Shown in pieces: positions 12,045 to 28,543 of a DNA stretch of 39,595 nt. The position numbers were made by a program, and so were the translations under genes. Source of the stretch: Candidatus Acidiferrales bacterium (GTDB taxonomy: Bacteria; Acidobacteriota; Terriglobia; Acidiferrales; UBA7541); contig JASHRC010000247.1 in NCBI GenBank assembly GCA_030037525.1, positions 1 to 39,595 on the forward strand, in the 5' to 3' direction. The stretch's first letter is position 1, and each line of letters starts with the position of its first letter. Below the pieces are notes generated by a model. It did not search any database. It saw only the letters and a program-made list of their open reading frames with translations, and was not told the DNA's origin.

Positions 12045-12770
12045 ATGTCGACAGAGCGCGCGGCTGCTACGGTCGGAAACCGGACCAGATCCAAAGCGAA
12101 GTTCCTCATTCGCCGCATCGGATGGATAGCGCTTTCGTTGATCCTTCTCTGGCTCGTGGTCGGCTATCTGGCCACCATACCCGTTGTCGGCAACGATCCT
12201 TATTGGCGCACACTCCGGGCGCAGCCCGGCGAATTTGGCTTGCACGCCGAAACAGTTTTCTTTCCCGCGCGGGACCAGACCCCTCTGGTGGCTTGGTACA
12301 TCCCCGCACTCGGAACGCCCCGCGGCACGGTAATCCTCGCGCACGGCATCGACGGCAATCGTTCCGACATGCTTCCCCGCGCCGCTTTCCTGGTGCGCGA
12401 CGGCTACAACGCGCTTCTGGTCGATCTGCGCGACCACGGCCAGAGTGGCGGAAATTACGCAAGCCCCGGTTACGTGGAATCGCGTGACATTCTGGGCGCG
12501 ACGATCTTTTCACGCACCTACTCTTCCCACGCCTACGATCTCAAGTCTCGTCTAGCCTCCAGCCGGGGTACTGCTCAAGAACAATCTCCGCCCACCGCGA
12601 CCTACACCCACGAAGTCACTGCCACGATCGCGACGGAAAAAGAGGCCAAACAAACCAGAAAGACAGAAAGAGTTCCGCTTTCGCTGGAGGGCAGCAAAAT
12701 CGATGTTGCCTTCGATCTCGTTCCCGGCAGAGGCGCGCGCACAAAGGTGTCCGGCGTCGCCAGCAGATGA
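12045..12770 (+). pseudogene. Alpha/beta hydrolase truncated before its active site, with an unrelated C-terminal sequence
   Basis: Residues 1-150 look like a membrane-anchored alpha/beta hydrolase: a span at about 25-45 (IGWIALSLILLWLVVGYLA), VILAHGIDGNRSD (oxyanion region), and LLVDLRDHGQSGG. The expected next steps (the D(I/V)xGAxxYL helix, the nucleophile GxSxGA, the acid and the His) are missing. After ESRDILGA, near 12505, the reading frame continues into a Thr/Lys/Glu-rich stretch (EVTATIATEKEAKQTRKTE, then KIDVAFDLVPGRG) that does not resemble a hydrolase. It ends at TGA 12768-12770, 33 bases from the convergent amidohydrolase gene. The likely reading is an in-frame deletion or junction fusing the hydrolase start to the end of another gene. 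A short functional protein cannot be excluded. Confidence 0.7.
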
Positions 12771-12803
12771 TCGGCACGACGGGCGCTGCGAGTCTGGCCG
12801 AGG

Positions 12804-14069
12804 TTATGCACGCTTCACTCTCCTTTCCAGAGCCGGTGATCGGGCGAGCAGCGAAAGTAAATGCGAACCGGCCTCGAGCGCCCTGGCCACATCCTCCATC
12901 CGCACCGTTTCTTCTGGGTTGTGGCTGAGCCCGCCTGGCGTTCGCAGAAAAATCATCGCGGAGGGAACTTTTTCCGCCAGGATCATCGCGTCATGCCCCG
13001 CGCCGCTCACCATTCGGTGTGGCTTCAAGCCCGTTCTGCGAATCGCTTCTTCGATCTGCTCGACCATGCCTCGGTCCATCGGCACCGACGGCTGGCTGAG
13101 CAGGGTGCGCTCGGTCACCGTGAGTCCCCGCCGCGTGGCAATCTCTTGGGCCAGACGCACCAGCGCATCGACCGCGCGCGTTCGCACGTCGTCCACCCGG
13201 TGCCGCACATCCAGCGTCAGCCGTGTTTCGCCCGCGATCACGTTTGCTACCCCGGGTTTTGGCTCCACGGTTCCGACCGTCGCTACCAGCCCGGGGACGC
13301 TTTTTCCTTCGCGCTCGACCACCGAGATCCATTCCGCCGCGCCCGCCAGCGAATCGCGGCGCAAATGCATGGGCGTGGTGCCGGCGTGATTGGCACGCCC
13401 CAGAAAGGCGAATTCCAGTTTGCTCTGCCCGGCAACGGCTTCGACCGCACCCAAAGCCAGCCCGAGCTCCTCGAGGACCGGCCCCTGCTCTATATGAAAC
13501 TCGACGTAGCCGAGCACGTCGCCCTTCAAACGCGCGGCCGGAATTTCCGCAGGCTTAAGCCCGAAACCCTCGATCGCTGCGCGCACGCTCGTCCCGTGTG
13601 CATCCTCGTGCCGCAGCAAGTCTTCATCGAGCCGACCAACGAGCGCTCGGCTGCCGATGAACGGCGTGCCAAACCGTACTCCCTCCTCCTCGGAAAATCC
13701 GATGATCTCAATCCCAAACGGAAGCCGTACGCCTTCGAGCGATTCCAGCAAGGCTACGCCCAAAACCACCCCGAGCGCCCCGTCAAACGCTCCCGCGTCG
13801 GGCACCGTGTCGAGGTGCGATCCGACGAGCAGCCGGGGCGCCGCCCGATCTGAGCCCGGATAGAACCCGCGCAGATTCCCGGCCGCATCGATTCTTACTT
13901 CGACGCCCAGCGGCTCCAGCCATTCCCCAATCTCCTGGTGGCAATCGCGCATGGGAGGGGAAAGAAACGTCCGGCTCGTCGAATCCGGCCTCTCGCTGAA
14001 ACCGGCCAGCTTGCGGCAACGGTCGATGACTGTTTTGGCCCGAACCCGGCTTTCCTCACTCGGCGGCAC
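12804..14069 (-). CDS. Allantoate amidohydrolase / hydantoinase-carbamoylase family M20 amidase
   Basis: A 421-residue cytoplasmic metalloenzyme that would release ammonia from allantoate. The two-metal site of the family is complete: His85 and Asp96 (GSHLDTVPDAGAFDGALG), Glu128/Glu129 (GFSEEEGVRFG), His192 (EFHIEQGPVLE), and the late His in SGAGHDAM. The dimerisation region carries NHAGTTPM. Start is GTG at 14069; an AGGAGG lies about 12 bases upstream, a little far. It is the last gene of a minus-strand cluster with xanthine dehydrogenase, so allantoate is the favoured substrate, but N-carbamoyl-amino-acid hydrolysis cannot be excluded within this family. The gene looks intact, in contrast to the fragment 18 bases before it. 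Confidence 0.85.
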   Translation of the reverse strand: MPPSEESRVRAKTVIDRCRKLAGFSERPDSTSRTFLSPPMRDCHQEIGEWLEPLGVEVRIDAAGNLRGFYPGSDRAAPRLLVGSHLDTVPDAGAFDGALGVVLGVALLESLEGVRLPFGIEIIGFSEEEGVRFGTPFIGSRALVGRLDEDLLRHEDAHGTSVRAAIEGFGLKPAEIPAARLKGDVLGYVEFHIEQGPVLEELGLALGAVEAVAGQSKLEFAFLGRANHAGTTPMHLRRDSLAGAAEWISVVEREGKSVPGLVATVGTVEPKPGVANVIAGETRLTLDVRHRVDDVRTRAVDALVRLAQEIATRRGLTVTERTLLSQPSVPMDRGMVEQIEEAIRRTGLKPHRMVSGAGHDAMILAEKVPSAMIFLRTPGGLSHNPEETVRMEDVARALEAGSHLLSLLARSPALERRVKRA

Positions 14070-14087
14070 CTAGCCCTCGCGCCTCCT

Positions 14088-14402
14088 TTACGCCCGCCTC
14101 GACACGCGCGCGTCGATATATCCGTGCGGCTCATCGGTTGGAACAAAAATCTCGTTGGGATTGTCCTGGCCAGTGTGCGAGAGGTCCACGAGCAGGCAAT
14201 GGATCTCGAACGCTTCGATCCAATCTCGCTGGTCAAGGCTGCGCCAAATCTCATCGGACGCGCCCAGCAGCGTCGTCTTGTCTGGAATGGGCCGCCGCTC
14301 CGCCATCTGCCGCGCCCACGCCCGCGCGCCGCAGCAGCGCAAGATTTCGCTTTCTACTTCCGCCGACGACAGCCGATTCCAACGCGTCAGCGTCTCATTC
14401 AT
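14088..14402 (-). pseudogene. Chimeric remnant: N-terminus of OHCU decarboxylase (UraD) joined to C-terminus of urate oxidase
   Basis: The 104-residue open frame has two recognisable halves. Residues 1-68 match the start of OHCU decarboxylase (LTRWNRLSSAEVESEIL, RAWARQMAERRPI, DWIEAFEIH), stopping at the catalytic His region normally read as HPRIG. The next residues match the last 35 of urate oxidase (LLVDLSHTGQDNPNEIFVP, then TDEPHGYIDARV). The junction is near 14200. B. subtilis PucL is a UraD-uricase fusion in the same order, so the simplest explanation is an in-frame internal deletion of about 1.1 kb. Neither active site can be complete. The ATG at 14402 overlaps the end of the FAD-subunit gene by eight bases, as in an operon. 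The stop is TAA at 14090-14088. Confidence 0.8.
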
Positions 14403-15273
14403 GACCCGTCGCGCCGCCCAGCGTTTCGAGAAATTCCCCGACGAGGTTGCCGACGACCGCCGCGCGGTATCGCGCCGTCGAGCGGATATCGTCAATCGGA
14501 TGCGTTTCGGCCACCGCCGCCCCTCGCGCCTGGCCAATCGCGTCTCTGTCAAGCGCCCTGCCCTCGAGCACCCGCTCGGTTTGGCGCAGGCGAATGGGAG
14601 TGGGCGCCACGCTTCCCAGGGCGATGCGCACATCGGCAACCTGGCCCTTCTCGACTCGCCCGAGACCGGCGATTGAGACCTTCGCAATCGCCTGCGCGTT
14701 GCGCGCACCCACCTTGCGCCCATAGGAAACGTAGCCCGCAAATCGCCGCTTAAGACAAATCGCCCGAACCAGCTCATCCGGCTCCAGGGCGATCTTTTTG
14801 TAGCCAGTGTGGAAATCCAGGTAGGGCACGCGCCTTTCTCGGCGCGCTGAAACCAGAATCAGCTCGGCTTCATAGGCCAGCAGCGCGGGCAGCGAGTCCG
14901 CCGCCGGCGACGCGTTCACGATGTTCCCGCCGAGTGTCCCGCGATTCTGGTTCGCGATTCCGCCCGTCCAGCTGGCGGCCAACGTCAGCAACGGAAATTC
15001 CCGCCCGACCGTCTCGTGCCTGCGCAGGTCGGTGTAAGTTGAACCGGCGCCGATCCGAACTTCCTCGGGTAGGACTTCGATGTGCCGCAGCTCAGGAAGA
15101 TTCCAAATGCTCAGCAGCTTGCGCGCCCCAAGCGTTCCGGCTGCAAACTGGACCATCACATCGGTGCCGCCCGCGATCGGCAGCCAGGCCGCCGGCTGCT
15201 CCGCCAGCAGCTGGACGGCATCGACAAAACTTGCGGGCGCGACAAACTCATACTCGGTGGGATCTGCCCTCAT
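14395..15273 (-). CDS. Xanthine dehydrogenase FAD-binding subunit
   Basis: A 292-residue flavoprotein of the CO-dehydrogenase/xanthine-dehydrogenase medium-subunit type; it passes electrons from the iron-sulfur subunit to its acceptor. FAD-contact motifs are visible: AGGTDVMVQF (about residues 33-42) and TLGGNIVNASPAADSLPALL (about 110-129). The C-terminal CO_deh_flav_C part is present (ALGSVAPTPIRLRQTE). The start ATG at 15273 overlaps the stop of the [2Fe-2S] subunit (ATGA, 15270-15273). It sits third in the order molybdenum subunit, [2Fe-2S] subunit, FAD subunit, all on the minus strand. Intact and of normal length. Confidence 0.9.
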   Translation of the reverse strand: MRADPTEYEFVAPASFVDAVQLLAEQPAAWLPIAGGTDVMVQFAAGTLGARKLLSIWNLPELRHIEVLPEEVRIGAGSTYTDLRRHETVGREFPLLTLAASWTGGIANQNRGTLGGNIVNASPAADSLPALLAYEAELILVSARRERRVPYLDFHTGYKKIALEPDELVRAICLKRRFAGYVSYGRKVGARNAQAIAKVSIAGLGRVEKGQVADVRIALGSVAPTPIRLRQTERVLEGRALDRDAIGQARGAAVAETHPIDDIRSTARYRAAVVGNLVGEFLETLGGATGHE

Positions 15274-15743
15274 CTTGCCGCAGTGCGCCGCGCCGCCTCC
15301 GCCACGGCCTCCAGAATTTGTAGATAGCCCGTGCAACGGCAGAGATTGCCCGAAAGCCCTTCGCGAATGTCGTCGGCCGTCGGGTTAGGCTTTCTAGCGA
15401 GCAGAGCGACCGCTGCCACCATCATCCCCGGCGTGCAGATGCCGCACTGAGCCCCGCCGCAGTTGAGAAATGCCTCACGCAGCGCCCCAAACCGGAGATT
15501 CGCCGCGACTCCCTCGATGGTGACGACGCTCGTGCCTTCCGCCTGCGCCACCGGCACAAGGCAGCTCGTCGCCAGCTCGCCATCAATCAGCACCGAACAG
15601 GCCCCGCACTCGCCTTCGCCGCAGCCTTCCTTGGTGCCCGTCAGCGAAAGCTGCTGCCGCAGTACATCGAGCAAGCGCTCCATCGGGTAGGCGCGGACGC
15701 TGCGCCGCTCCCCGTTCACGACGAACGAAATTTCGGTCTTCAT
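15270..15743 (-). CDS. Xanthine dehydrogenase [2Fe-2S] subunit
   Basis: A 157-residue iron-sulfur subunit with both clusters of the family. The N-terminal ferredoxin-type cluster has [13 protein letters not shown] with a later Cys in ATSCLVP. The C-terminal four-helix cluster has [13 protein letters not shown] and CRCTGY. It links the molybdenum centre to FAD. The start ATG at 15743 overlaps the stop of the molybdenum subunit in an ATGA, and its own stop overlaps the FAD-subunit start, so all three are translationally coupled. Of usual length (about 150-170) and with all eight cluster cysteines. Confidence 0.92.
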
Positions 15744-18028
15744 CGCACTCCGGCCGGCGTGCGCGCCGTGGTTGCTCGCCAAGCCGCCGCTCGTTCGACG
15801 CCCTCGAAGATGCTCTCGGGCAGCAAGGGCACGCTGTCAAAGGGAATTCCCAGTGCGTCTTCCACGGCATTCACCACCGCCGGCGCCGGCCCATCCATCG
15901 GCAGCTCGCCGATTCCCTTTGCGCCAAAGGCGCCATAACGATTGCCCAACTCTTCGAAAAACACGCGAACGGCAGGCAGGTCCGCCGAAGTGGGAATGGT
16001 GTAATTGGTCATCTGGCTGTTCGCCATGCGGCCTTCCCGCCATTCTACTTTCTCGTACAATGCGAATCCAATTCCCTGCGCCACCCCGCCCAGAATCTGT
16101 CCCCGTGCCAGCACCGGATTCATCACGCGTCCCACCTCCTGCAGAGCGACGAAGTCATCCACTCGTGTGCTGTAACTCGTCAAGTTCACCGTGACTTCCG
16201 CTACATAGATGGCCCAGGTGAAGGCCGCATAGGCCTCGCCGCGGTACTTTTGATCGTCCCAGTAGATTCCCTCGGGTGACTCGTACCGCGCAAGCGATCG
16301 CAGCCGTTGGTGCGCGGCCACATAAGCGCGGCACGCAGCGCGAAATTCCGCCGCCGTGCCGTTGCCCTTGAGCAGTCCAGCAGCAACCAGCGTCTGCTTT
16401 AGGCCCAGCGCCGCCGACGCCACCAATTTGCCCACCACCATGGCCGTGCGCGACGCCACGGTCGGCCCGCTGTTGGGTACCTCGCCGGTGTCGGGCCGCG
16501 CCATGGTTACATCTTCATACGGCAGGCCCAGCGCCTCGGCCGCAATCTGGCACAGGACGGTGTTGGTTCCCTGCCCGAATTCGGTGCTCGAAACCAGCAC
16601 CTTGACGCCGCCATCGGCCGATCCCTCGACTCCCACCACCGAGGCGAGATGCCGCTCGCCCGATCCGGTGAATCCCGCTCCATGCAGAAACGCCGCGATT
16701 CCCATCCCTTTCTTCTCCGAGCCGAGGGGATTTTCCTTCGCAAAGCGCCTCTTCTTCTGCTCGTAGTCCGCCAAGCCGAGCGCGCGATCGAGCAATTTCC
16801 CTAGATCGATCGGCTCGTTGATCACCTGCTCGGTAATCGTGGTCTGGCCCGGCTGGAGGAAATTGCGCCGCCGAATTTCCGCGGGCGAAAGTCCCACAGC
16901 GCGCGCGAGCCTCTCCATGTGCCGCTCGATCGCAAAGAGCGCCTGGGGCGCGCCGAAGCCGCGAAACGCCCCGTGAGGGGGAGTGTTCGTCGCCACCGCC
17001 TTGGCCCTCACCCGCACGTTTGGCCAGTAGTAGGGACCGCCGGCATGGATCGTCGCGCGCGACAGCACCACCGGCGAAAGCGTCATATAGGCGCCGCCAT
17101 CGATGACCAAGTCGATTTCGCCACCCAGAATTTTTCCATCCTTGCTTAGGGCTGTGCGATGCCGCGTGCGCGACGGGTGCCGCTTGGTTGTCGCCGCCAT
17201 GTCCTCGGCGCGATCATAAATAATCTTTACCGGCCGCCCGGCTTTCATCGCCAGCAGCGATGCGTGGGCCGCGATCATCGACGGATAGTCTTCCTTGCCG
17301 CCGAAGGCGCCGCCCGTTTCGGTCTGCACCACGCGCACTTTGTCTTCCGGCAACCCGCACAATTCGACGAGCGCCTTATGCACGTAATAGGGACACTGCA
17401 GCGAACCCCACACGGTAATTCCCTTTTCGGCATCGAACGCGGCGATCACGCCATTGGTCTCGATGTAGAGCTGCTCCTGCGCGCCGGTCGAATATTCGCC
17501 TTCGACGATGTAATCCGCCTTGGCCCACACGCTGTCCACATCGCCCTTTTCAATTCGATACGACTTGAAAACATTGTCCGTACCCCAGATGATCTGCTCT
17601 TGGCGCTCGCTAGAGTCCATCGTGAACACCGCCGGCAGAGCCTCGTATTCAATCTCGACCGCCGCCACGGCTTTGGGCAAAGCATGACGGCGAGGGTGCG
17701 CCAGCAGCAGAATGGCCTCCTCGGGATGATTGACGACATCGGCGGCAAGACACGGCTGATCGTTTTCAATCAGCGCGACCCAGTTCCGCCCGGGAATGTC
17801 TTTTGCCGATACGATGACGAACTCGTTCCAAGCGACCCCCGGCCCAAAATCTATTTTTTTGATTTTTCCGCGCGGGATCTGGCTGCGCACCGTTGCGCCG
17901 TAGAGCATGTGGGGGAAACTGAGGTCGTCGATGTACCGCGCGCAGCCGCTGACCTTGTCGCGGCCTTCCTTGCGCGGCGCAGAGGATCCTACGATGTGTT
18001 CAGTCTGGGACCCGGACACGCCTCCCAT
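15740..18028 (-). CDS. Xanthine dehydrogenase molybdenum-binding subunit
   Basis: A 762-residue catalytic subunit of the xanthine oxidase family, oxidising xanthine/hypoxanthine to urate. It holds the N-terminal a/b-hammerhead domain (KVSGCARYIDDL) and molybdopterin motifs ETGGAFGGKEDYP, PPHGAFRGFGAPQ, SSTEFGQGTNTV, and the catalytic Glu in GAKGIGELPMDGPAPAV near the C-terminus. Substrate choice among xanthine, nicotinate-type or aldehyde substrates is not certain from motifs alone. The neighbours (guanine deaminase, allantoate amidohydrolase, UraD/uricase and allantoinase fragments) strongly favour xanthine. The ATG at 18028 has only a distant AGGAG. First intact gene of the operon. Confidence 0.88.
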   Translation of the reverse strand: MGGVSGSQTEHIVGSSAPRKEGRDKVSGCARYIDDLSFPHMLYGATVRSQIPRGKIKKIDFGPGVAWNEFVIVSAKDIPGRNWVALIENDQPCLAADVVNHPEEAILLLAHPRRHALPKAVAAVEIEYEALPAVFTMDSSERQEQIIWGTDNVFKSYRIEKGDVDSVWAKADYIVEGEYSTGAQEQLYIETNGVIAAFDAEKGITVWGSLQCPYYVHKALVELCGLPEDKVRVVQTETGGAFGGKEDYPSMIAAHASLLAMKAGRPVKIIYDRAEDMAATTKRHPSRTRHRTALSKDGKILGGEIDLVIDGGAYMTLSPVVLSRATIHAGGPYYWPNVRVRAKAVATNTPPHGAFRGFGAPQALFAIERHMERLARAVGLSPAEIRRRNFLQPGQTTITEQVINEPIDLGKLLDRALGLADYEQKKRRFAKENPLGSEKKGMGIAAFLHGAGFTGSGERHLASVVGVEGSADGGVKVLVSSTEFGQGTNTVLCQIAAEALGLPYEDVTMARPDTGEVPNSGPTVASRTAMVVGKLVASAALGLKQTLVAAGLLKGNGTAAEFRAACRAYVAAHQRLRSLARYESPEGIYWDDQKYRGEAYAAFTWAIYVAEVTVNLTSYSTRVDDFVALQEVGRVMNPVLARGQILGGVAQGIGFALYEKVEWREGRMANSQMTNYTIPTSADLPAVRVFFEELGNRYGAFGAKGIGELPMDGPAPAVVNAVEDALGIPFDSVPLLPESIFEGVERAAAWRATTARTPAGVR

Positions 18029-18099: not shown

Positions 18100-18345
18100 T
18101 CAAGCGCGGACCGATCCAGGCCGATGTTCTCTTCCCTGGGGCTCACGCGGAAATTGGTCGCAATCGAAGGCGAGTTTGCCTCGCATATAGGTTGCCTTCA
18201 CGACGCCCCGCAAACGCTTGCCCCCATAGGGCGACAGCTGATGTCGCTGGTAGAGCCGCTCGCTCGTTACCACGAATTCCGCCTCCGGCTCGAACACAAC
18301 CAGATCCGCATCTGATCCCGCGGCGATCCGCCCCTTGTGCGAAGC
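18100..18345 (-). pseudogene. C-terminal fragment of an allantoinase/dihydropyrimidinase-type amidohydrolase
   Basis: About 80 residues match the very end of allantoinase: HKGRIAAGSDADLVVFEPEA cut by kind, then EFVVTSERLYQRHQLSPYGG, then KRLRGVVKATYMRGKLAFD, ending in TGA at 18102-18100. The HKGxIxxGxDADLVVF strand and the YxGxxLRGVVxxTxxRG tail are hallmarks of the cyclic amidohydrolase family. The metal-binding part (HxH, carbamylated Lys, later His and Asp), roughly the first 370 residues, is absent. Upstream in frame there is a TAG before any plausible ATG. The fragment lies 72 bases before the xanthine dehydrogenase operon on the same strand, so the intact gene was probably its first member. 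It overlaps the leader of the divergent guanine deaminase gene. Confidence 0.8.
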
Positions 18346-18410
18346 GCAGTATGGGAAATTCGTTTGCCGTTGGGGACACGACTACCGATATTCGAGCTTA
18401 TACTCAAGCA

Positions 18411-18878
18411 ATGTCCAGCCCTTTCATGGCTCGCGCCATCGAGCTCGCTATTGAAAATGTCCGCTCAGGCCGCGGCGGCCCCTTCGGGGCCGTCGTGGTC
18501 AAAGAGGGCCAAATTATCGCCGAGGCTGCCAACCGGGTCACCGCCACCAATGATCCCACCGCCCACGCCGAGGTCCTGGCCATCCGCGCTGCTTGTGCAA
18601 AACTCGGCGCTTTCGAGCTCCGCGGCTCGGAGCTCTACACCTCCTGTGAGCCCTGCCCGATGTGCCTCGGGGCCATCTACTGGGCACGGCCGGATCGCGT
18701 CTATTTTGGCGGTAGCGCTTCGGACGCCTCGCGCGCCGGCTTCGACGACTCCCTCATCTATTGCGAAATCGCCCAACCCCACACCTCGCGCAGAATCCCG
18801 ATGATCCAGCTCATGCGCGACGAAGCGCTGGAAACCTTCCGCGCCTGGGAACGCCAACCCAACAAAATCCCCTATTAG
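18411..18878 (+). CDS. guaD: Guanine deaminase, CMP/dCMP-deaminase fold
   Basis: A 155-residue zinc deaminase converting guanine to xanthine, like B. subtilis GuaD. The zinc motif is complete: His52-Ala-Glu54 (THAHAEVLAIRAA in outline) and Cys82-Pro-Met-Cys85 (SCEPCPMCLGAIYWA). The WARPDRVYFGG segment and the C-terminal YCEI...PMIQLM...AWERQPNKIPY region fit the domain-swapped GuaD type rather than tRNA adenosine deaminase. The start ATG at 18411 has no clear ribosome site; a longer open frame upstream overlaps the allantoinase remnant and is not protein-like. Feeding xanthine to the divergent xanthine dehydrogenase operon is its likely job. Confidence 0.88.
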   Translation: MSSPFMARAIELAIENVRSGRGGPFGAVVVKEGQIIAEAANRVTATNDPTAHAEVLAIRAACAKLGAFELRGSELYTSCEPCPMCLGAIYWARPDRVYFGGSASDASRAGFDDSLIYCEIAQPHTSRRIPMIQLMRDEALETFRAWERQPNKIPY

Positions 18879-18938
18879 GGAACTTTTGCCGCCCCTGGGG
18901 GCAAGTATCGTCAAACCGTGGTAGTGTGGGGTTGGCCT

Positions 18939-20516
18939 ATGCTCCGGATTGGTCTTGCCGCTGCCGAACTCCTCGCGCTGCTTGTTGCCGCGCTCTTGCC
19001 TGCCCTAGGACAGGGCATGCAGTACGAAATCCACTCGGAAAAGCGTCTGTTCCCCACAATCGGTCCCGGCGTGGTCGCCCTCAAACGGGATGCCGCCGGA
19101 AACTACTATATTCTCGCGGAGCCGGCCGACAGGATCTTGGTTTTTGATGCCGCCCAGCGCCCCAAGGGACAGATTCCCAACGCCAATTCCGCCGGCGCCG
19201 TGATCCGCTACGCGGTCGGCATGGATCTGGATTCTGAAGGTCGCCTCTACGTGGCCGACCGCGGCGCGAACGCCGTCAAGGTTTTCGCTCCCGACGGAGC
19301 TCCGATCGCGAACGTTCCGGTCACCGCTCCGACCTCCGTCGTCGCGCTTTCCGACGGCCAGTTCGCCGTTACCAAACTCCAATCGAAGCGGCTGGTCCAG
19401 ATCATGGACCAAACGGGCGCAACGATCCGCACCTTCGGCGACCCGGGTGATCTGAGCGCTGCTCCGACCTCGACACCTTCTCCTGTAGCGGGCCGTCCTA
19501 CCCCGCCGGTGCCCCCGGTCGATCGCGGGCGCATCACCGGCGATCGTGCCGGAAATATCTATTTTGCTTTCACCTCTCTCGCCGATCCCGCCGTCCAACG
19601 GTTTGATCGCTGGGGTTACTCCGCCTACGACTCCGTCATGCCCGCCACTGATTTTGGTGCCCTCGGCGGACGAAACGGGCGCGACGTCGAGCTCGGCTAC
19701 AGCATTTCCGGCATCACCGGCGCTGACACTGTCAGCGCCTGGACCGACCTCCACTCGGTGAAGGCTTCCGTCAGCAGCAGGGGAGAGCGCCGCGGCCGCA
19801 CTGGCACAGGACCGGGAACGACCGGAAGCGGTACCAACAGCTCGGCCACATCCGATTCCTCGACAGCGGCGATTGCCGGAGATGATATTTCAGATTCCTC
19901 AGACTACGACGGAGAGATTCTTAACTACAACGGGCAAACCGCCTCGGACACATCACTGTTTGGGACTTCCGGGCTGGGAATGCTTGGTCCCGGGTTCGCG
20001 ATGCCCGGCATGATGGGTATGGGGTTTGGCGATCCGTTTCGCATGGGAGGATTTCCCAGAGCCTTCGGAGATTTCGGCGCCGATCACACCCACCCAGACT
20101 TCCCCGGCGGAAGACCCGACGGCGAGGGTTTTGGCCACTTTCATCCCGGCTTTAACACCTATCGCTCCACCGTTACGGTGCGCGTCGCGCTTGACGATCC
20201 GTCCAAGCGCAAACTCGCCAAGCCCGTGATTACGGCAATGGCCGTCGATCCCCAAACCGAGGAGGCCTGGGCCGCCATCGGCGACATGCTGGTGCACCTG
20301 GGTCGCAACGGCAATCGTCTGGACACTTACTACGTTACGATTACTGGCGACACGACGGCAAAAGCCTCGGCGATTCTCGTCGAACCGAGTCGCATCCTGA
20401 TCGCCTCCGATTCTTGGGGCATTTACGAATTCGCCCGCCCCGACAATTCCTCCCGGGCACAACCCACCGGCCACACCGCTGTCGCCCAGCCGCTCGCCCC
20501 TCCGACGTCCAAATAG
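18939..20516 (+). CDS. Exported NHL/beta-propeller-like protein with a Gly/Met/Phe-rich insert
   Basis: About 525 residues. A signal peptide (IGLAAAELLALLVAALLPALG) is followed by propeller-like repeats over about 25-230 (YAVGMDLDSEGRLYVADRGA, NAVKVFAPDGAPIA, RGRITGDRAGNIYFAFTS). A long low-complexity linker follows (about 280-410): Thr/Gly/Ser repeats, an Asp/Ser run, then MPGMMGMGFGDPFRMGGFPR and His/Gly/Phe-rich sequence. A last propeller-like part (VITAMAVDPQTEEAWAAIGD) ends the protein. Function is not recognised; a scaffold or binding role outside the cytoplasm is plausible. The start is ambiguous between ATG 18939 and GTG 18918; I chose the ATG since the signal peptide begins there. 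It converges on the subtilase gene with a 10-base gap. Confidence 0.7.
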   Translation: MLRIGLAAAELLALLVAALLPALGQGMQYEIHSEKRLFPTIGPGVVALKRDAAGNYYILAEPADRILVFDAAQRPKGQIPNANSAGAVIRYAVGMDLDSEGRLYVADRGANAVKVFAPDGAPIANVPVTAPTSVVALSDGQFAVTKLQSKRLVQIMDQTGATIRTFGDPGDLSAAPTSTPSPVAGRPTPPVPPVDRGRITGDRAGNIYFAFTSLADPAVQRFDRWGYSAYDSVMPATDFGALGGRNGRDVELGYSISGITGADTVSAWTDLHSVKASVSSRGERRGRTGTGPGTTGSGTNSSATSDSSTAAIAGDDISDSSDYDGEILNYNGQTASDTSLFGTSGLGMLGPGFAMPGMMGMGFGDPFRMGGFPRAFGDFGADHTHPDFPGGRPDGEGFGHFHPGFNTYRSTVTVRVALDDPSKRKLAKPVITAMAVDPQTEEAWAAIGDMLVHLGRNGNRLDTYYVTITGDTTAKASAILVEPSRILIASDSWGIYEFARPDNSSRAQPTGHTAVAQPLAPPTSK

Positions 20517-20526
20517 CGGGATCGGC

Positions 20527-22386
20527 CTAGCGACTGATTTGCTGTTCTAACAAGGCGACCGAGCGCTTCTCGTCAATCAAATGGAGGCGGCCGTCGGCGC
20601 TGGTGGTTGCACCCTTCCGGATGAGCTCAATCGCGCGTTCCGGGGTAAGTGACGGCGAGATGGCAAACAGCTTCGCGGCCAGATTCACCACGTTCGGCGA
20701 AGCCATCGAGGTCCCGGACAGCCTCAGCCTGGCACCCCCGGGAATGTAGCTTTCAACCTCGTATCCGCCGGCATCGACCACCACCGTCGGGCCGTAGCTG
20801 GTAAATGAGGTCTCCTCGCCTGCCTGATCGACGGCGCCAACCGCAATCAGGTTGGGGAGGTCGAGCGAGGCCGGCACGTCGCCCAGAAACGCCGCGTCGC
20901 TGTTGCTGTTGCCGGCAGCGGTGACGAACAGAGTGTCCGGCGCGTTCCGGATGGCACTCTCGATGGCCTTGCGCCAGACGGCATAAAGCTCGTCGGCACG
21001 TTTCTTGCGCTCAGCGGGATCGGCGCCGCCTCCAGTCCGCGACAGCCACGTCTCAAACTCTTCCGGATCGTCTCCCCAACTCATGTTCACCACGCGAACA
21101 TGGCGCGTGCGGAAATAATCGGAGATCTGCTCGAAATCGGCCGCCAACTTATGCGCCCACTCGACTGTGGGAGGAAACGTCAGTTCGCTCAGTTGGTCGT
21201 CGAAGGCGGCGACGACCAGCCGCGCAAACGGATTGCCGCGCACGGCGATACCGGCGCAGTGCGTTCCGTGGGCATAAAAGCCGAGAGTTTCCTCGATTTG
21301 GAAAAGCCGGTGCAGCTGCTCGGGAGTTTCGGTGCGATAAACCTTCTCGAGTTCCTGCGCGTCGGGAGAATCCTTGGTGTTTTCGATGTCCAGCCGTCCG
21401 TTGACGAGGGCGCGAAACTCGGGATACGTTTCCCGTTCCTCCGGGGACAGCGGAAAGAGGTAGGAGGCCATCGGCGCGCCGCGATCGTCATAGGCCAGCC
21501 CGTGGCTGCCGCTGGCCGTCGGTCGCGGATCATCGAAAACCTGTCCGGGATAAACCGAAAGATCCACACCCGAATCCCAAATCCCGACCACAACCGGCGT
21601 CAAATCTTGATCCTGCCGGAGGGTGACCTCGCGCGAGGCCCAGATGTCAGGCTTGGTGTCAGGATGGGCCGCGATGTACTCCTTGAGAATCGGAGCGCGC
21701 AAGGGTCCGAGTGGAACACCGAATTCGATCTCGTCACGCGTTTCGACGACAGTCCAAGCCTCGGCATTATTGAGCGCACCGGACTTTTCGACGGCGGGAT
21801 CAATGTCGGTCATCACGCTGGCGAGTGCGACGGATTTCGAGTGGATGCGTGCGTCGACGTAGGAGCGCCGCGCCCAGTCCTCTGCGAGATTCCAGGGCAG
21901 CGAATCTACCCCCTGGCGATAGCGTTTCGTGAACGCTTGATCGAATGCTGCACCGTGCGTGGATTTCGTTTCCAGGAAGGCCTCCAGCTGGGCGCGAGCA
22001 CCAAGGCCGGTGGTCAACTTGGCCTCGGGCTTCTCCTGGAGCGAACGGAGCTGCTCGAGGGTTCCCAGCGCAGCAGAGTTGTCGCTGGCAAGGTCCTCGA
22101 GGTCGAACTTGACCTCGGTGAGCGTACGCAGAGTCGCCTTGTCGTCAATCTCGTAATTGTTGAAGATGTTGTCCAGATCGACGCGAACCTTCCGAGCGAA
22201 GGCGTTAAAGGTCGCGTCGTCGGCCCCTAAGAGCGCCGAAGCCGAACCTTCGAGCGGGTAACTGAAACGCGGCAGATCCGCTTCGCTTGCTACTCTCTTC
22301 TTGTTCGATCGGGCGGCGGCGGGAAATAGAACCGTCAGAAGGAAAAGACATCCGATCGAGCGCCAGAGGGTCTTCGCTGCCGGCAT
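20527..22386 (-). CDS. Subtilisin-like serine protease (S8 family), exported
   Basis: A 619-residue secreted protease. A signal peptide (residues about 5-25) and a long pro-region of about 240 residues precede the catalytic domain. The triad is complete: Asp271 (GIWDSGVD), His373 (YAHGTHCAG) and Ser560 (SGTSMASPN); the oxyanion Asn is in VTAAGNSNSD. The pro-region is helical and lacks an obvious Inhibitor_I9 signature. The start is ATG 22386; GTG at 22392 is two codons upstream and equally possible. No ribosome site is evident for either. Substrate unknown. It shares a 252-base upstream gap with the divergent M23 peptidase. Confidence 0.9.
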   Translation of the reverse strand: MPAAKTLWRSIGCLFLLTVLFPAAARSNKKRVASEADLPRFSYPLEGSASALLGADDATFNAFARKVRVDLDNIFNNYEIDDKATLRTLTEVKFDLEDLASDNSAALGTLEQLRSLQEKPEAKLTTGLGARAQLEAFLETKSTHGAAFDQAFTKRYRQGVDSLPWNLAEDWARRSYVDARIHSKSVALASVMTDIDPAVEKSGALNNAEAWTVVETRDEIEFGVPLGPLRAPILKEYIAAHPDTKPDIWASREVTLRQDQDLTPVVVGIWDSGVDLSVYPGQVFDDPRPTASGSHGLAYDDRGAPMASYLFPLSPEERETYPEFRALVNGRLDIENTKDSPDAQELEKVYRTETPEQLHRLFQIEETLGFYAHGTHCAGIAVRGNPFARLVVAAFDDQLSELTFPPTVEWAHKLAADFEQISDYFRTRHVRVVNMSWGDDPEEFETWLSRTGGGADPAERKKRADELYAVWRKAIESAIRNAPDTLFVTAAGNSNSDAAFLGDVPASLDLPNLIAVGAVDQAGEETSFTSYGPTVVVDAGGYEVESYIPGGARLRLSGTSMASPNVVNLAAKLFAISPSLTPERAIELIRKGATTSADGRLHLIDEKRSVALLEQQISR

Positions 22387-22638
22387 CGTCACACACGTTG
22401 GTGCTGCAAGTGAAGTCTAGGCGTCCAGGTGTGACCCGTCAATCGACGAAAGCCACTCGAGCCAAAGCACGCCCAAAGCCTTTCTGTATTTTCGCGCCGC
22501 CGATCGCTTGTCGCTTGCGCCGGGGGGGATTGGGACGCCCGTCACTACTTGCGAATCGCCCTTCACATTTTCGCTTTTCTATCGCGCGCGCCTTGGGCTA
22601 TCCTGCCGAATCATTTCGAGTGGAACGAAGGGTCCTCG

Positions 22639-23931
22639 ATGAGCAGGGCGCGACAAATCTTCTGGGCGGGCTTTCTTCTGCTGGCCGCGGGCTTCGCCGC
22701 CGCCTCTTACCAGGTGCGGTTTTCCGCCGAAAGAGTTTTGGCTCGCAACCGCTCGGCGGCGCAGGGGGAGGCCTTGCGCCTTGAGCAGCAGATCGTTCGT
22801 TTCAGCGCGTACACCCTTCCCAAAGGGCTGGCTTTTGCCGCCTCTCTGGAGGACATGGGCGTGGATCGGCCGACCGCAGTGCGCCTGGAAGCTTCTGCAC
22901 AGTCTGTCTTCGACTTGCGTCGTCTTCGTGCCGGCAATCAACTGGCGATCGGACGCTCGCTCTGGGGCGATCTGCGCGAAGTCCGCTACACCATCGATCC
23001 CGAGCATGTCCTGTCGATCGCGCCCCAGGGAGGCAGTTTCCATTCCGAGATCGAGGCCATTGCTTCCCATATGGAAACGGTGGGCGTCGGGGGCCGAATC
23101 GAAGGCTCTCTGTTTGAGGCCGTCACCGATGCCGGCGAAAACCCCCAGCTGGCGATGCGCCTGGCCGGTATCTTCGCATTCGATCTCGACTTCTCGACCG
23201 ATCCGCGCCCCGGCGATACGTTCCGCGTCGTGGTCGAAAAGAAAATACTGGCGAATGGGGAAACCGTCTCGTACGGCCGCATTCTCGCCGCCGAATACAA
23301 CCGCGGCACACGCTCCTATCGCGCCGTCCTGTTCCGGGACGCGTCTGGCAACCAGGCGTACTTCACACCGGAAGGCAAGCAAATGAAGAAGGCCTTCCTC
23401 GCTTCACCGCTGAAGTTCGCCGCACCGATCACTTCGCATTTCAGCTATCACCGCTTCCATCCGATTCTCAAGGAATACCGGCCGCACCTCGGAATCGACT
23501 ACGGCGCCCCGATGGGCGCTCCCGTGCAAACGATTGGCGATGGCCGGGTCATTTTTGCAGGGCTAAAGGGCGGCGACGGTAATCTCGTCAAGGTCCGGCA
23601 CGCGAACGCCTACACCACCTATTACATGCATCTCTCGCGCGTTTTGGTCCGCAACGGCCAGCGGGTCGAGCAGGGCCAGCCGATCGGGCTGGTCGGCATG
23701 ACGGGGCTTTCGACCGGGCCGCATCTCGACTTCCGCATCGAGCTAGGCGGACGATTTTTGAACTTCGAGAAGCTGGGACTTCCCACCGCCGATCCGATCT
23801 CCAAGCGCAACTGGCCGGCATTCGCTGCCGCCCGCGATCGAGCCTTCGCCCTGATGCCGCCGCCCGAGGGAGACCACACCTCCGTCGCCGAGAGCCGGCA
23901 GCCCCGAGCCCCTGTTTCCTCGGCTCGCTGA
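22639..23931 (+). CDS. M23-family (LytM-type) metallopeptidase, membrane-anchored
   Basis: A 430-residue protein with an N-terminal signal anchor (IFWAGFLLLAAGFAAASY), a region similar to the spacer of MepM/NlpD-type hydrolases (about 45-220), and a C-terminal M23 domain (about 255-375). Zinc ligands His283 and Asp287 are in RPHLGIDYG; a catalytic His is in YYMHLSRV; His362 is in TGPHLDFRIE. The usual HxH is HxD here (Asp364), a variant I recall from other M23 subfamilies, so activity is likely but not certain. Probable role: cleaving peptidoglycan cross-links in the periplasm. The ATG at 22639 is chosen because the signal anchor begins there, with GAAGG upstream. Confidence 0.88.
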   Translation: MSRARQIFWAGFLLLAAGFAAASYQVRFSAERVLARNRSAAQGEALRLEQQIVRFSAYTLPKGLAFAASLEDMGVDRPTAVRLEASAQSVFDLRRLRAGNQLAIGRSLWGDLREVRYTIDPEHVLSIAPQGGSFHSEIEAIASHMETVGVGGRIEGSLFEAVTDAGENPQLAMRLAGIFAFDLDFSTDPRPGDTFRVVVEKKILANGETVSYGRILAAEYNRGTRSYRAVLFRDASGNQAYFTPEGKQMKKAFLASPLKFAAPITSHFSYHRFHPILKEYRPHLGIDYGAPMGAPVQTIGDGRVIFAGLKGGDGNLVKVRHANAYTTYYMHLSRVLVRNGQRVEQGQPIGLVGMTGLSTGPHLDFRIELGGRFLNFEKLGLPTADPISKRNWPAFAAARDRAFALMPPPEGDHTSVAESRQPRAPVSSAR

Positions 23932-24013
23932 GCGCACCAAAAAAAAGTGAAGCCCGGGCGCACGGGGAGTACCAGGCAAAGCGGAGTCGGGCGGGATCGA
24001 ATGCTTCGCGATT

Positions 24014-25045
24014 TCAGGGGCGAACTTCCCAGGTGTCGCCCTCGCACAGCAGCTTGGCGAGGTCGCCTGGTCCGCGCTTGGCCCGGACGTCGCGAATCTG
24101 CGCGGCAATGTTTTCCTCGTAGCGCGGGACGTCCGGCCAGGACCGGAAGACGCCGATGGGAGTCGGAAAACCCGGCTGCTCTTCCATATGCGCAAGCAAA
24201 AACGAGTATGCGGGCTGCCGATTATGCTCGTCGTGGACCAGGAGATCCCGTTCGGTCTTGCCGTTGCCAACGGAGACCACTTCGAGATTGAGCCCGTTCA
24301 GGCGGATTCCCTTGTCTCGGTTCCGTCCGAACACGAGCGGCTTGCCCTGCTCGAGCTGCACAACATGTTCGCTGCGCGCATCTTTTTCGGTCAGCGATTC
24401 CCACGCGCGATCGTTGAAGATGTTGCAGTTCTGAAGAATCTCGACGTAGGCAGAGCCCTTGTGCGCCGCCGCCTTCCGCAGCGTCTCTTTCAAATGCTGC
24501 TGGAACACGTCGACCGAGCGGGCCACGAATGTCGCATTCGCGCCCAGCGCGAGTGCGATCGGATTAAAGGGGCGGTCGGCGGTCCCGTAGGGAGTCGATT
24601 TCGTTTTCTTGCCGATTTCCGAAGTGGGGGAGTACTGCCCTTTCGTCAGTCCGTAGATGCGATTGTTGAACATCAGAACTTTCAGCCCGACGTTGCGGCG
24701 CAGCATGTGAATGGTGTGATTGCCGCCGATCGAAAGCGAGTCGCCGTCACCGGTCGCCACCCAAACCTCCAGATCCGGGCGAGTGATTTTAAGGCCGGTC
24801 GCCACCGCCGGCGCGCGGCCGTGAATGGAGTGAAAACCGAATGTGTTCATATAATACGGAAAGCGGCTCGAGCAGCCGATGCCGGAAATGACGACGAACT
24901 TTTCCTTCGGAATGCCGAGCTCCGGGAAAACCGACTGCACGGCTGACAGGATGGCGTAGTCGCCGCAGCCGGGACACCAGCGAATCTCCTGGTCGGTTTG
25001 AAAATCCTTCTTGGTGTAAGGCAGCGGCAGGGTTAGCGTGCTCAT
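24014..25045 (-). CDS. korB: 2-oxoacid:ferredoxin oxidoreductase beta subunit
   Basis: A 343-residue thiamine-pyrophosphate-binding subunit of 2-oxoglutarate/2-oxoacid:ferredoxin oxidoreductase; with KorA it decarboxylates a 2-oxoacid with CoA and reduces ferredoxin. Visible: CPGCGDYAIL near the N-terminus, GIGCSSRFPYY, the TPP/Mg motif GDGDSLSIGGNH, and NNRIYGLTKGQYSPTS, typical of KorB. No extra ferredoxin domain is present. GGAGAAATCCCG precedes the ATG at 25045. It follows korA on the same strand after 40 bases. The most likely substrate is 2-oxoglutarate, giving an oxidative or reductive TCA step; this is a family-level inference. Confidence 0.9.
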   Translation of the reverse strand: MSTLTLPLPYTKKDFQTDQEIRWCPGCGDYAILSAVQSVFPELGIPKEKFVVISGIGCSSRFPYYMNTFGFHSIHGRAPAVATGLKITRPDLEVWVATGDGDSLSIGGNHTIHMLRRNVGLKVLMFNNRIYGLTKGQYSPTSEIGKKTKSTPYGTADRPFNPIALALGANATFVARSVDVFQQHLKETLRKAAAHKGSAYVEILQNCNIFNDRAWESLTEKDARSEHVVQLEQGKPLVFGRNRDKGIRLNGLNLEVVSVGNGKTERDLLVHDEHNRQPAYSFLLAHMEEQPGFPTPIGVFRSWPDVPRYEENIAAQIRDVRAKRGPGDLAKLLCEGDTWEVRP

Positions 25046-25085
25046 CGGGATTTCTCCAAATCCGGGTTCGAAACGACCGTGCGCA

Positions 25086-26939
25086 TTAGTCCAGGAGCTC
25101 CTCGATTTTCTGCTCGATTTCGGATTGCTTGAAGGGCTTGCCCTGAATTTTGTTGTAGCCGACGGCGTCCACTAGATACTTCGCCCGCAGCACCATCACG
25201 AGCTGGCCCATGTTCATTTCAGGCACCAGAACGCGGTCGTAGCGCATCAACACATCGCCCAAATTCTTCGGCAGCGGATTCAGGTGACGCAGGTGAACGT
25301 GACCGATGCGGCGTCCCTTGGCGCGCTGGGCTCGGAGCGCGGCGGTGACAGGCCCGAACGTCGAGCCCCAGGCCACGATGAGCAGATCGCCCGAGGGGTC
25401 GCCGGCGGCGACGACGTCGGGAACGTCTTCGACGATCGCCGCGACCTTTTCGGCGCGCAGATGCACCATGCGCTCGTGATTCAGCGGCTCGTAGTTGACA
25501 TTTCCGGTCACGTCCTGCTTTTCGAGTCCGCCGATGCGATGTTCCAATCCCGGCGTTCCGGGAATCGCCCAGGGACGGGCGAGCGTCCGGGGATTTCGCC
25601 GGTAAGGCCGGAAGCCTTCCGGATCGGTTTCAAACTTCACCGGAATTTCCGGCAACTCGGAAACCTTCGGGATCTTCCAAGGCTCGGCCCCGTTCGCCAG
25701 GTAGCCATCGGAGAGAACGATCACCGGTACCATGTACTTGATGGCGATGCGGCTCGCTTCCAGCGCCATCCAGAAGCAGTCACCCGGCGTGGCGGGCGCC
25801 AGCACTGGAATCGGCGCCTCTGAATTTCGGCCGAAAAGCGCCTGGAGCAAATCGGCTTGCTCGGTCTTGGTGGGCAGGCCGGTCGATGGACCGCCGCGCT
25901 GAATGTCGCAGATGACCAGCGGCAACTCGACCGCAACCGCCAAGCCAAGTGCTTCGGTTTTCAGCGCCATTCCCGGACCAGACGTGCTGGTGACGCCGAG
26001 CGAGCCGCCGTACGCCGCCCCGATTGCCGAAGTGATCGCCGCGATTTCGTCTTCGGCCTGAAAGGTGATGACCCCGAAATTCTTGTAGCCGGAAAGCTCG
26101 TGCAGAATGTCAGAGGCCGGAGTGATCGGATAGGAACCGAGAAACAGCGGCAAGCCCGATTTTTGAGAGGCCGCGACGAAGCCCATGGCCAGCGCACTGT
26201 TTCCGCTGACATTGCGGTACACGCCGGGAGAAAGCTTGGCCGGCGGAATCTCGTAGGTGATCTGAAACGCCTCAGTGGCCTCGCAGTAACTGTAACCGGC
26301 CCGCATCGCCGTGCGGTTGGCCTCGACCAGCTGCGGCTTGGCCTTGAATTTGTCCTCGATCCAGCGCAGGGAGGTTTCCATCGAGCGGTTGTAGAGCCAG
26401 TAGCACATCCCGAGCGCGAAGAAATTCTTGCAGCGGTCCATGCTCTTGGCGTCCAGACCAAGGTCCTTCAGCGCGGCGCGCGTCAGTTTGGTCAGCTCCA
26501 CCGGAAACACGCGATAGCCGTCGAGCGAATGGTCCTCGAGCGGATTGGTGCTCATCTGCGCTTTGCGCAGATCGGTCTCCTGAAAATTGTCGAGGTTGAC
26601 GATCAGAATGCCGTTCGGCTTGAGGTCGGAAAGGTTCATCTTCAGCGCCGCGGGATTCATGGCTACCAGCGCATCGACGCTGTCGCCGGGCGTGTAGACG
26701 TCGCTCGAAGAAAAATGAACCTGAAAGCCGCTGACGCCGGGAAGAGTGCCCGCCGGGGCGCGAATCTCCGCCGGGAAGTCGGGGAGGGTGGCCAGATCAT
26801 TGCCGTACAGCGCCACCGTATTGGTGAACTGGCTTCCGGTGATCTGCATTCCGTCACCGGAATCGCCGCAAAAGCGGACCACCGCGCGCTCAAGCGTCTC
26901 CCGCTTGCGCTCACGAGGAGGAGCTACTGTGGTAGACAT
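25086..26939 (-). CDS. korA: 2-oxoacid:ferredoxin oxidoreductase alpha subunit (gamma-alpha fusion)
   Basis: A 617-residue protein with the gamma domain fused at the N-terminus (RFCGDSGDGMQITGSQF at about residue 21, DSVDALVAMNPAALKMNLSD) and the alpha part from about 200 (GNSALAMGFVAA, GSYPITPASDILHELS, FQAEDEIAAITSAIGAAYGG, TSGPGMALKTEALGLA, RGGPSTGLPTKTEQADLLQALFG). Such fusions are normal for KorA. The C-terminal transketolase-like domain is complete (LIVAWGSTFGPV, VLVPEMNMGQLV). The ATG at 26939 begins the homologous sequence; the ribosome site (AGGA) is weak and distant, and an open frame upstream to 27014 is not protein-like. korB follows, likely in one transcript. Confidence 0.9.
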   Translation of the reverse strand: MSTTVAPPRERKRETLERAVVRFCGDSGDGMQITGSQFTNTVALYGNDLATLPDFPAEIRAPAGTLPGVSGFQVHFSSSDVYTPGDSVDALVAMNPAALKMNLSDLKPNGILIVNLDNFQETDLRKAQMSTNPLEDHSLDGYRVFPVELTKLTRAALKDLGLDAKSMDRCKNFFALGMCYWLYNRSMETSLRWIEDKFKAKPQLVEANRTAMRAGYSYCEATEAFQITYEIPPAKLSPGVYRNVSGNSALAMGFVAASQKSGLPLFLGSYPITPASDILHELSGYKNFGVITFQAEDEIAAITSAIGAAYGGSLGVTSTSGPGMALKTEALGLAVAVELPLVICDIQRGGPSTGLPTKTEQADLLQALFGRNSEAPIPVLAPATPGDCFWMALEASRIAIKYMVPVIVLSDGYLANGAEPWKIPKVSELPEIPVKFETDPEGFRPYRRNPRTLARPWAIPGTPGLEHRIGGLEKQDVTGNVNYEPLNHERMVHLRAEKVAAIVEDVPDVVAAGDPSGDLLIVAWGSTFGPVTAALRAQRAKGRRIGHVHLRHLNPLPKNLGDVLMRYDRVLVPEMNMGQLVMVLRAKYLVDAVGYNKIQGKPFKQSEIEQKIEELLD

Positions 26940-27247
26940 AGATTTACTGCTTCCTGTCCTCTTCCTTAGATAGCAGAGGAGATGGACGAGATGCCGGGCC
27001 GTTCCCCAAACCAAAGAGCAGCTGCCGATGCTCTCGTCTACGGAAAGCGTAACACAAACCGAAGCCGCCGAGCCACCCAGTCACGAAGATGAAACGCAAA
27101 GAGGCAAGATGATTTCTTCCCTGCTCCGACCTGGAATTTTCCTTTTTCGAAACTGCGCACCTCCCCAGGCGCATCAGAATGGTTCAGGATCACCTCCAGC
27201 GTGGCGGGAAGCCGGCAGCAACCTCGGCTGCCAAGTGCCAATTGGGG
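26940..27247. other. Intergenic region between azgA-like stop and korA start
   Basis: 308 bases, both flanking genes on the minus strand. One small inverted repeat (GGCAGC aacctcg GCTGCC, about 27210-27229) lies just past the permease stop. It has no T-run after it on the minus strand, so a terminator is not supported. No gene or convincing promoter for korA was recognised. Confidence 0.4.
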
Positions 27248-28543
27248 CTATTCCGCACCGAGGAAGATATAGCGGAGGAGAAACAAGACGCTGAGCACCC
27301 AAATCAGGGCGCTAATTTCCCTTCGCCTTCCTGCGAATAGTTTCAGGAAGGTGAAGGAAAGCAACCCCATGCTCAGACCCGTAGCGATGCTGAACGTCAG
27401 CGGTGTGGCGATGAGCGTCAGAAACGCCGGAACCGCATCGGTAAAATCATCCCACTTCACGCGTGCAACCGCCCCGCACATGAGCGCGCCTACCAAGATC
27501 AGCGCGGGCGAAGTGGCGTAGGAGGGAATCGCCGCCACAATCGGCGCGCAAAACATCGCCGCCAGAAACAGCGCCGCGATCAGCAGGTTGCCCAGGCCGG
27601 TGCGCGCGCCCGCCGCCACACCGGCGGCGCTTTCCACATAGCTCGTGACCGTCGAGGTTCCCGTCAGCGCCCCGACGATCGTGCCCAAGGCGTCGGACAG
27701 CAACGCACGGCTGGCTCGCGGCAATTTGCCATCCTCGAGAAAGCCGCCCTCTTCGCACACGCCGACCAGCGTCCCGACGTTGTCGAAAAGATCGACGAAG
27801 AAAAATACGAACACCAGTTCGCCGAGCCCCAGTTTCGCCGCGGAGCGCAGATCGAGCTTCAGGAAAGTTCCCGAGGCATGCGGCAGCGAAAACAAGTGCT
27901 CGGGCCAGTGGCTTACGCCCAGCGGTATGCCCGCAATCGTAATCGCCACGATGCCTACCAAAATCGCGCTCCCCACCCGTTTGGCAACGAGAATGGCAAT
28001 CAGCAAAAGGCCCAGCAGCGCCAGAATCACTTGCCGATCGGAAAGTTTCCCCAGCCCGACAAACGTGGACGAATTGCCCACGATAATGTTGGCGTTGCGA
28101 AATCCGATGAAGGCGATGAAAAGCCCGATGCCGGCGGCGGTGCCGTGCTTTAGGCAATCGGGAATCCCGTTGACGATCTGCTCGCGCACATTGGTGAGAG
28201 TAAGAATCAGAAATAGCACGCCGGAAAGCAGCACGACGCCCAGGGCCGTCTGCCACGGCACATGGCGCCCGATCACGATCGAGTAGGTGAAATAGGCGTT
28301 GAGCGACATGCCTGGCGCAAGCGCAATCGGGTAGTTCGCCCACATGCCCATCACCAGCGTTGCGATGGCCGATGAAACACAGGTCGCAAAGAGCACCCCA
28401 TCGACCGGCATGCCCGCCTGCGAAAGAATCTGCGGGTTCACCACCACCACGTAGGCCATGGTCATGAACGTGGTGAGCCCGGCCAGCAGCTCCCGCCGCA
28501 GGGTGGTCTTGTTTTCCGAAAGATGAAACACGCGCTCCAGCAT
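27248..28543 (-). CDS. AzgA-like purine permease (NCS2/AzgA family)
   Basis: A 431-residue integral membrane protein with about 12-14 spans, a likely importer of adenine, guanine or hypoxanthine. AzgA-family signatures are visible: ELLAGLTTFMTMAYVVVVNP near the N-terminus, GMWANYPIALAPGMSLNAYF, the helix-8 region VFFFVDLFDNVGTLVGV, and GALTGTSTVTSYVESAAGVA. The length is normal (AzgA about 430). The ATG at 28543 is used because GGGGAAGCGGC precedes it; an in-frame start at 28561 is possible. A sigma-70-like promoter lies about 54 bases upstream. The purine-degradation cluster 9 kb away makes purine uptake a sensible shared theme, but the two are not in one operon. Confidence 0.9.
   Translation of the reverse strand: MLERVFHLSENKTTLRRELLAGLTTFMTMAYVVVVNPQILSQAGMPVDGVLFATCVSSAIATLVMGMWANYPIALAPGMSLNAYFTYSIVIGRHVPWQTALGVVLLSGVLFLILTLTNVREQIVNGIPDCLKHGTAAGIGLFIAFIGFRNANIIVGNSSTFVGLGKLSDRQVILALLGLLLIAILVAKRVGSAILVGIVAITIAGIPLGVSHWPEHLFSLPHASGTFLKLDLRSAAKLGLGELVFVFFFVDLFDNVGTLVGVCEEGGFLEDGKLPRASRALLSDALGTIVGALTGTSTVTSYVESAAGVAAGARTGLGNLLIAALFLAAMFCAPIVAAIPSYATSPALILVGALMCGAVARVKWDDFTDAVPAFLTLIATPLTFSIATGLSMGLLSFTFLKLFAGRRREISALIWVLSVLFLLRYIFLGAE

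Follow-up and report, generated by a model that had tools for sequence, protein, structure and literature searches.

A 104-amino-acid open frame in the window (the whole 39,595-nt stretch analysed, from a Candidatus Acidiferrales bacterium) joins the start of UraD to the end of uricase, and is best read as a deletion scar: a pseudogene within a purine-degradation operon undergoing stepwise decay. We put the probability of this reading at about 84%. Coordinates of the features are collected in the table below.

Profile searches support the composition that the original prediction had assigned to the frame. The UraD half matches Pfam OHCU_decarbox (E 2.9e-7; frame residues 9-72 on profile positions 1-64 of 155) and NCBIfam UraD_2 (E 4.6e-11; positions 2-65 of 158). 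The uricase half matches the very end of NCBIfam TIGR03383 (frame residues 67-102 on positions 248-283 of 283, E 7.1e-6), with a score under the whole-protein cut-off of the model, as expected of a fragment; searched alone against Pfam, the 36-residue uricase tail gave no match. Likewise, a sequence search of the PDB aligned hybrid residues 17-70 with residues 27-80 of the OHCU decarboxylase 2q37 (E 4.4e-5) and hybrid residues 66-103 with residues 239-276 of uricase 1vax (E 1.8e-6). Both the UraD and the uricase matches are well past chance. The hybrid is neither a complete UraD domain (~155 positions with the HPRIG motif, present in 12/12 comparison rows and absent here) nor a complete cofactor-free uricase (~280 aa, two uricase domains). 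It is placed between full-length genes for an XDH-type FAD subunit and an allantoate amidohydrolase. The frame had been described as coupled to the FAD-subunit gene, which stands only in the sense that its start overlaps the end of that gene by 8 nt (14395-14402). Promoter and terminator scans gave scores close to the shuffled mean.

Features of the decayed purine cluster in the window
Feature	Position	Strand	Description
Cupin remnant ((S)-ureidoglycine aminohydrolase)	12713-12892	-	G009 residues 1-60 of 275; start overlaps the allantoate amidohydrolase gene
Deletion point 3	near 12713-12723		cupin homology ends after ~56-60 codons
Allantoate amidohydrolase (M20)	12804-14069	-	open, full length; NF006775 531 bits, cut-off 479
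Hybrid frame	14088-14402	-	UraD codons ~1-66 and last ~36 uricase codons; probable pseudogene
Deletion point 1	14199-14207		1,397 bp of G009 (L022 9209-10605) against 2 bp here
XDH-type FAD subunit	14395-15336	-	open, full length; stop overlaps hybrid start
[2Fe-2S] subunit	15270-15782	-	open, full length
Molybdopterin subunit	15740-18028	-	open, full length; 78% identity to G009
Allantoinase remnant	18103-18381	-	93-codon open frame; 18121-18342 = G009 allantoinase residues 388-461 of 462
Deletion point 2	18347-18391		45 bp here against 1,222 bp in G009
Deaminase-like gene, divergent	18411-18878	+	full length; right edge of the old cluster

Same-genus relatives show what is missing from the frame. 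The cluster of G009 (contig PMUS01000014.1) runs allantoinase, XDH molybdopterin, 2Fe-2S and FAD subunits, UraD, HIU hydrolase, uricase, allantoate amidohydrolase, ureidoglycine cupin and M20, and G018 (JARLGK010000188.1) keeps this order as far as its contig, which ends within allantoinase, reaches. BLASTN alignments of window 12723-14204 and 14207-18006 abut where G009 has the intervening 1,397 bp; the flanks fall at 14204/14207 against L022 and at 14201/14208 against L023, and G018 has 1,398 bp where the window has 6 bp. Missing are UraD from ~residue 67, the whole HIU hydrolase and uricase up to ~residue 245. The predicted large, in-frame internal deletion is supported by intact copies in both relatives and by none found elsewhere in the genome, whereas its size had been given as ~1.1 kb: the flanks give ~1.4 kb, a third gene (HIU hydrolase) included. 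Complete UraD and uricase in the relatives, and only fragments of them in the hybrid, agree with the expectation that both activities would go.

The sense codons across junction 1 are GAA GCG TTC GAG ATC CAT TGC CTG. Because the UraD of relatives reads E-A-F-x-x-H-P and their uricase P-N-x-H-C/F/Y-L, matching either side, and the His codon occurs in both parents, the switch from UraD to uricase lies within codons E66-I67-H68. By eye the ends carry no long repeat in the present sequences, and the deletion was presumably joined through few or no matching bases. Several junctions, in this cluster, were placed from BLASTN flanks together with sequence reading.

B. subtilis PucL is a bifunctional UraD-uricase with the UraD part first, and the original prediction had derived the frame from such a gene by a single internal deletion. 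The hybrid shares this domain order in one frame, but its two parts are fragments while the relatives carry three separate genes, and neither the hybrid nor its relatives combine a complete UraD and a complete uricase in one frame. UraD and uricase are both present in 26 of the 46 comparison loci scanned (6 + 20 out of 12 + 34, with L070 and L125 being one contig), and HIU hydrolase intervenes in 26/26, so deletion 1 crossed three genes. Descent from a true PucL-like fusion, contradicted by the nearest relatives, is hardly credible; comparison with related clusters upholds the internal deletion and not the single PucL-like ancestor. A different joining recurs among these loci: of 33 examined, 23 (the window included) have the XDH FAD subunit next to UraD, and in 10 of them no stop separates the two, which gives a single XdhB-UraD fusion frame. 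These frames lie at L022 10289-11674, at L023 11902-13284 and in L123, L124, L125, L126, L128, L139, L066 and L088, and Pfam detects both domains in the G009 protein.

The cluster has suffered two further losses, which an account limited to deletion 1 omits. The last ~74 codons of allantoinase remain (TIGR03178 positions 367-437 of 441, E 3.3e-19); the first ~387 codons, together with most of the spacer between allantoinase and the divergent deaminase gene, went at deletion point 2. Past deletion point 3 the window contains neither the remaining cupin sequence nor the M20 gene that comes next in G009; the G009 cupin itself scores 302 bits with TIGR03214 (cut-off 200). On the opposite strand, a frame at 12045-12770 (+) shows a weak match to an alpha/beta hydrolase start (E 2.9e-4, under the Pfam cut-off), then continues into unrelated sequence and the antisense of the cupin remnant; it may itself have been truncated by deletion 3.

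Judged from their sequences, the XDH-type subunits and the allantoate amidohydrolase look intact. The amidohydrolase is 71% identical to that of G009 over residues 2-417 of 417. For the FAD subunit the top NCBIfam models are XdhB, and for the molybdopterin subunit they are XDH subunits, in both cases with scores under the cut-offs of the models. Beyond the deaminase gene, ~8.4 kb (18877-27256) separates it from an NCS2-type permease, an interval of 140 bp in G009; genes named there by eye are NHL-type, subtilase-type, M23-type and 2-oxoacid:ferredoxin oxidoreductase-like. Near the start of the window, a gene that by eye is formate-dehydrogenase-like (795-2729, -) is split only by an in-frame TGA (2445-2447) in the context NRT*HAPSVAGL, which resembles the surroundings of the selenocysteine in E. 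coli FdhF; it is probably a selenoprotein gene and not a pseudogene. An Rfam search of the window at gathering scores gave no match.

The missing functions were sought throughout the genome assembly, which comprises 4.22 Mb in 286 contigs at 93% completeness (~7% missing). Across this 93%-complete assembly, uricase (PF01014) gave no match, HIU hydrolase was not found and UraD gave nothing past the hybrid fragment. The search for intact copies that had been proposed as a check therefore fits a deletion; that no working copy exists elsewhere is, at this completeness, not absolute. Allantoinase gave five matches genome-wide, none past the family cut-off: apart from the remnant in the window there are two short matches and two long ones (291 and 220 bits; cut-off 358), compared with 552 bits for the G009 allantoinase against the same model. 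By sequence and neighbours, the two long matches read as a hydantoinase/dihydropyrimidinase and a dihydroorotase. The HpxO model gave four matches in the genome, none past the cut-off. With the PuuD model there was a single weak match, in C145, which passes the cut-off of 26.9 bits when its neighbours in the frame are added (37.7 bits; 26.7 by itself); it belongs to a frame that by eye encodes a 252-aa membrane protein with purine genes absent in the surrounding 3.6 kb. Given this remote homologue of the membrane-type enzyme, some residual urate oxidation is conceivable.

Within the family, uricase has a scattered distribution, with 25/89 genomes carrying it. Among the comparison loci, 12 have HIU hydrolase and no uricase; in 11 of them (L029, L030 and L129-L137, but not L031) the place of uricase beside HIU hydrolase is taken by a membrane urate oxidase domain of the PuuD type (PF06181). 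The domain scores 287 bits in L133 (11345-12163), and a cytochrome c domain, sought in the L133 protein only, was not found. PuuD is described in PMC4562309. Within the window no PuuD match was found.

Three gaps in one cluster of a fragmented assembly (286 contigs, 93% complete) raise the question of an artefact, in which contig collapse, a chimeric join or a minor strain hides a true genome with the whole operon. For the comparison, 41 loci of this genome (574,525 bp, the window among them) were set against 61 loci of G009 (905,296 bp); four of the loci consisted of N throughout. The aligned part came to 117,355 bp, with 109,351 bp lying beyond the window. Taking a clean loss as at least 400 bp missing with at most 150 bp left, the window shows two against G009, deletion points 1 and 2, and the 69 neighbouring collinear block pairs outside the window (109,351 bp) show none in either genome. 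With wider limits, one window pair is cleanly shorter in G009 (140 versus 8,380 bp, deaminase to permease) and one pair outside is nearly clean (154 bp in G009 versus 8,897 bp). Differences of at least 400 bp with a longer remainder were also counted outside the window, 10 pairs being shorter here and 4 in G009, so the genome or assembly may be somewhat loss-prone. The 0/69 clean losses nevertheless speak against a genome-wide assembly fault, although such a comparison is not equal to read mapping. Furthermore, junction 1 in its present sequence shows by eye no repeat long enough for a read misjoin, no other contig carries the missing uricase, UraD and HIU hydrolase, and the remnants carry extra changes of this lineage. 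Together these observations make an artefact unlikely.

The hybrid, or its UraD half, might instead be a retained small protein with a new role, for example in binding the FAD subunit. Its frame is open and overlaps the FAD gene, the two partners are often one stop-free frame in the adjacent loci counted above, and modelling gives the UraD half confident helices. The structure model of the hybrid, for which 12 UraD relatives were aligned with it (mean pLDDT 74.8, pTM 0.60), shows five helices followed by a uricase tail of low confidence. A structure search of the PDB with this model gave no match at E 0.001 or better; the best matches were OHCU decarboxylases over 60-64 columns, with TM-scores of 0.35-0.40 by target length. 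The model thus resembles UraD in part only and does not look like a complete known fold, the outcome that was to have told against a deletion. The tail, the TM-score of just 0.40 to the best UraD structure, the similar behaviour of the adjacent allantoinase remnant, the faster change on the window branch and the restriction of the hybrid to one genome all argue against a retained protein, which we consider very improbable.

The rates behind this argument were obtained by comparison with G009. Window/G009 branch ratios of amino acid change are 1.57 for the UraD part (64 sites), 3.8 for the uricase part (35) and 1.82 for the allantoinase part (74), compared with 0.72-1.34 for six intact genes. 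One-sided changes in the window versus G009 number 26 versus 8 in the remnants and 162 versus 124 in the intact operon genes (Fisher p 0.028). Restricting the count to outgroup-invariant sites leaves no excess (3/54 changed in remnants versus 29/619 in intact genes, p 0.74), and the codon-position patterns of the remnants are not clearly apart from those of the same stretches in intact pairs. The excess of change is modest and absent from invariant sites; therefore the scar is young or the test is weak. As to distribution, the joined form was seen in the window only, in 1/89 family genomes (38/89 with any match) and in 1/399 sampled genomes of the class (63 with a match at 1e-12 or better). 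A G091 match over both halves (7-103) lies within an intact uricase gene and is not a hybrid, and other such matches (e.g. 6-103 in G151) were set aside by frame length alone (~280-370 aa, 173 aa for G262). The literature, represented mostly by titles and abstract openings, yielded no report of a UraD-uricase hybrid.

These findings suggest the following course for an operon whose decay is probably real and recent and took at least three losses. The ancestral operon would have had the G009 order, from allantoinase through M20. A single deletion of ~1.4 kb probably took the UraD end, HIU hydrolase and most of uricase, its ends meeting in frame by chance. Most of allantoinase and the cupin/M20 end, missing by the same comparison, went in two more losses. 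Urate oxidation and allantoin hydrolysis by the enzymes of the cluster would thereby be lost, so the remaining XDH-type enzyme, if xanthine-active, would stop at urate, the likely end point of the remaining pathway as far as the gene content indicates. The pseudogene is most likely still open because it is young, and its open frame could leave translation into the downstream amidohydrolase gene unhindered, which may have helped the frame to persist. A variant of this course, which we regard as rather unlikely, holds that the losses were selected. The three deletions would then have removed urate oxidation, allantoin hydrolysis and the last steps while sparing XDH and the amidohydrolase, leaving a pathway that ends in urate, an amidohydrolase acting on another carbamoyl substrate and a hybrid that serves as a translational bridge only. 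If so, a nitrogen-scavenging pathway would have become one ending in urate, excreted or retained as an antioxidant. The cluster is a compact case of piecewise pathway removal with the first enzyme surviving, and if the XDH-type enzyme is expressed and xanthine-active, the bacterium may release urate with its nitrogen unused. Operon decay can also yield an in-frame chimera that resembles a new two-domain gene, which calls for caution in naming fusion proteins.

Set beside known systems, the window is closest to the clusters of G009 and G018. Its genes are collinear with theirs, and the three XDH-type subunits and the amidohydrolase share 71-78% amino acid identity with G009, but the complete allantoinase, UraD, HIU hydrolase, uricase, cupin and second M20 are absent. 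From the XdhB-UraD fusions it differs in having two separate, overlapping frames. Like the PuuD-type loci, it lacks uricase at that operon position; those loci retain UraD and HIU hydrolase, whereas the window has lost both. As in deletion pseudogenes generally, truncated remnants stay in place between collinear flanks and the missing parts are not found elsewhere. What differs is that the reading frame runs on through the junction, and automatic annotation could therefore report a 104-aa gene. The type of event is well known, ordinary gene decay, and the instance is a tidy one, readily mistaken for a fusion gene.
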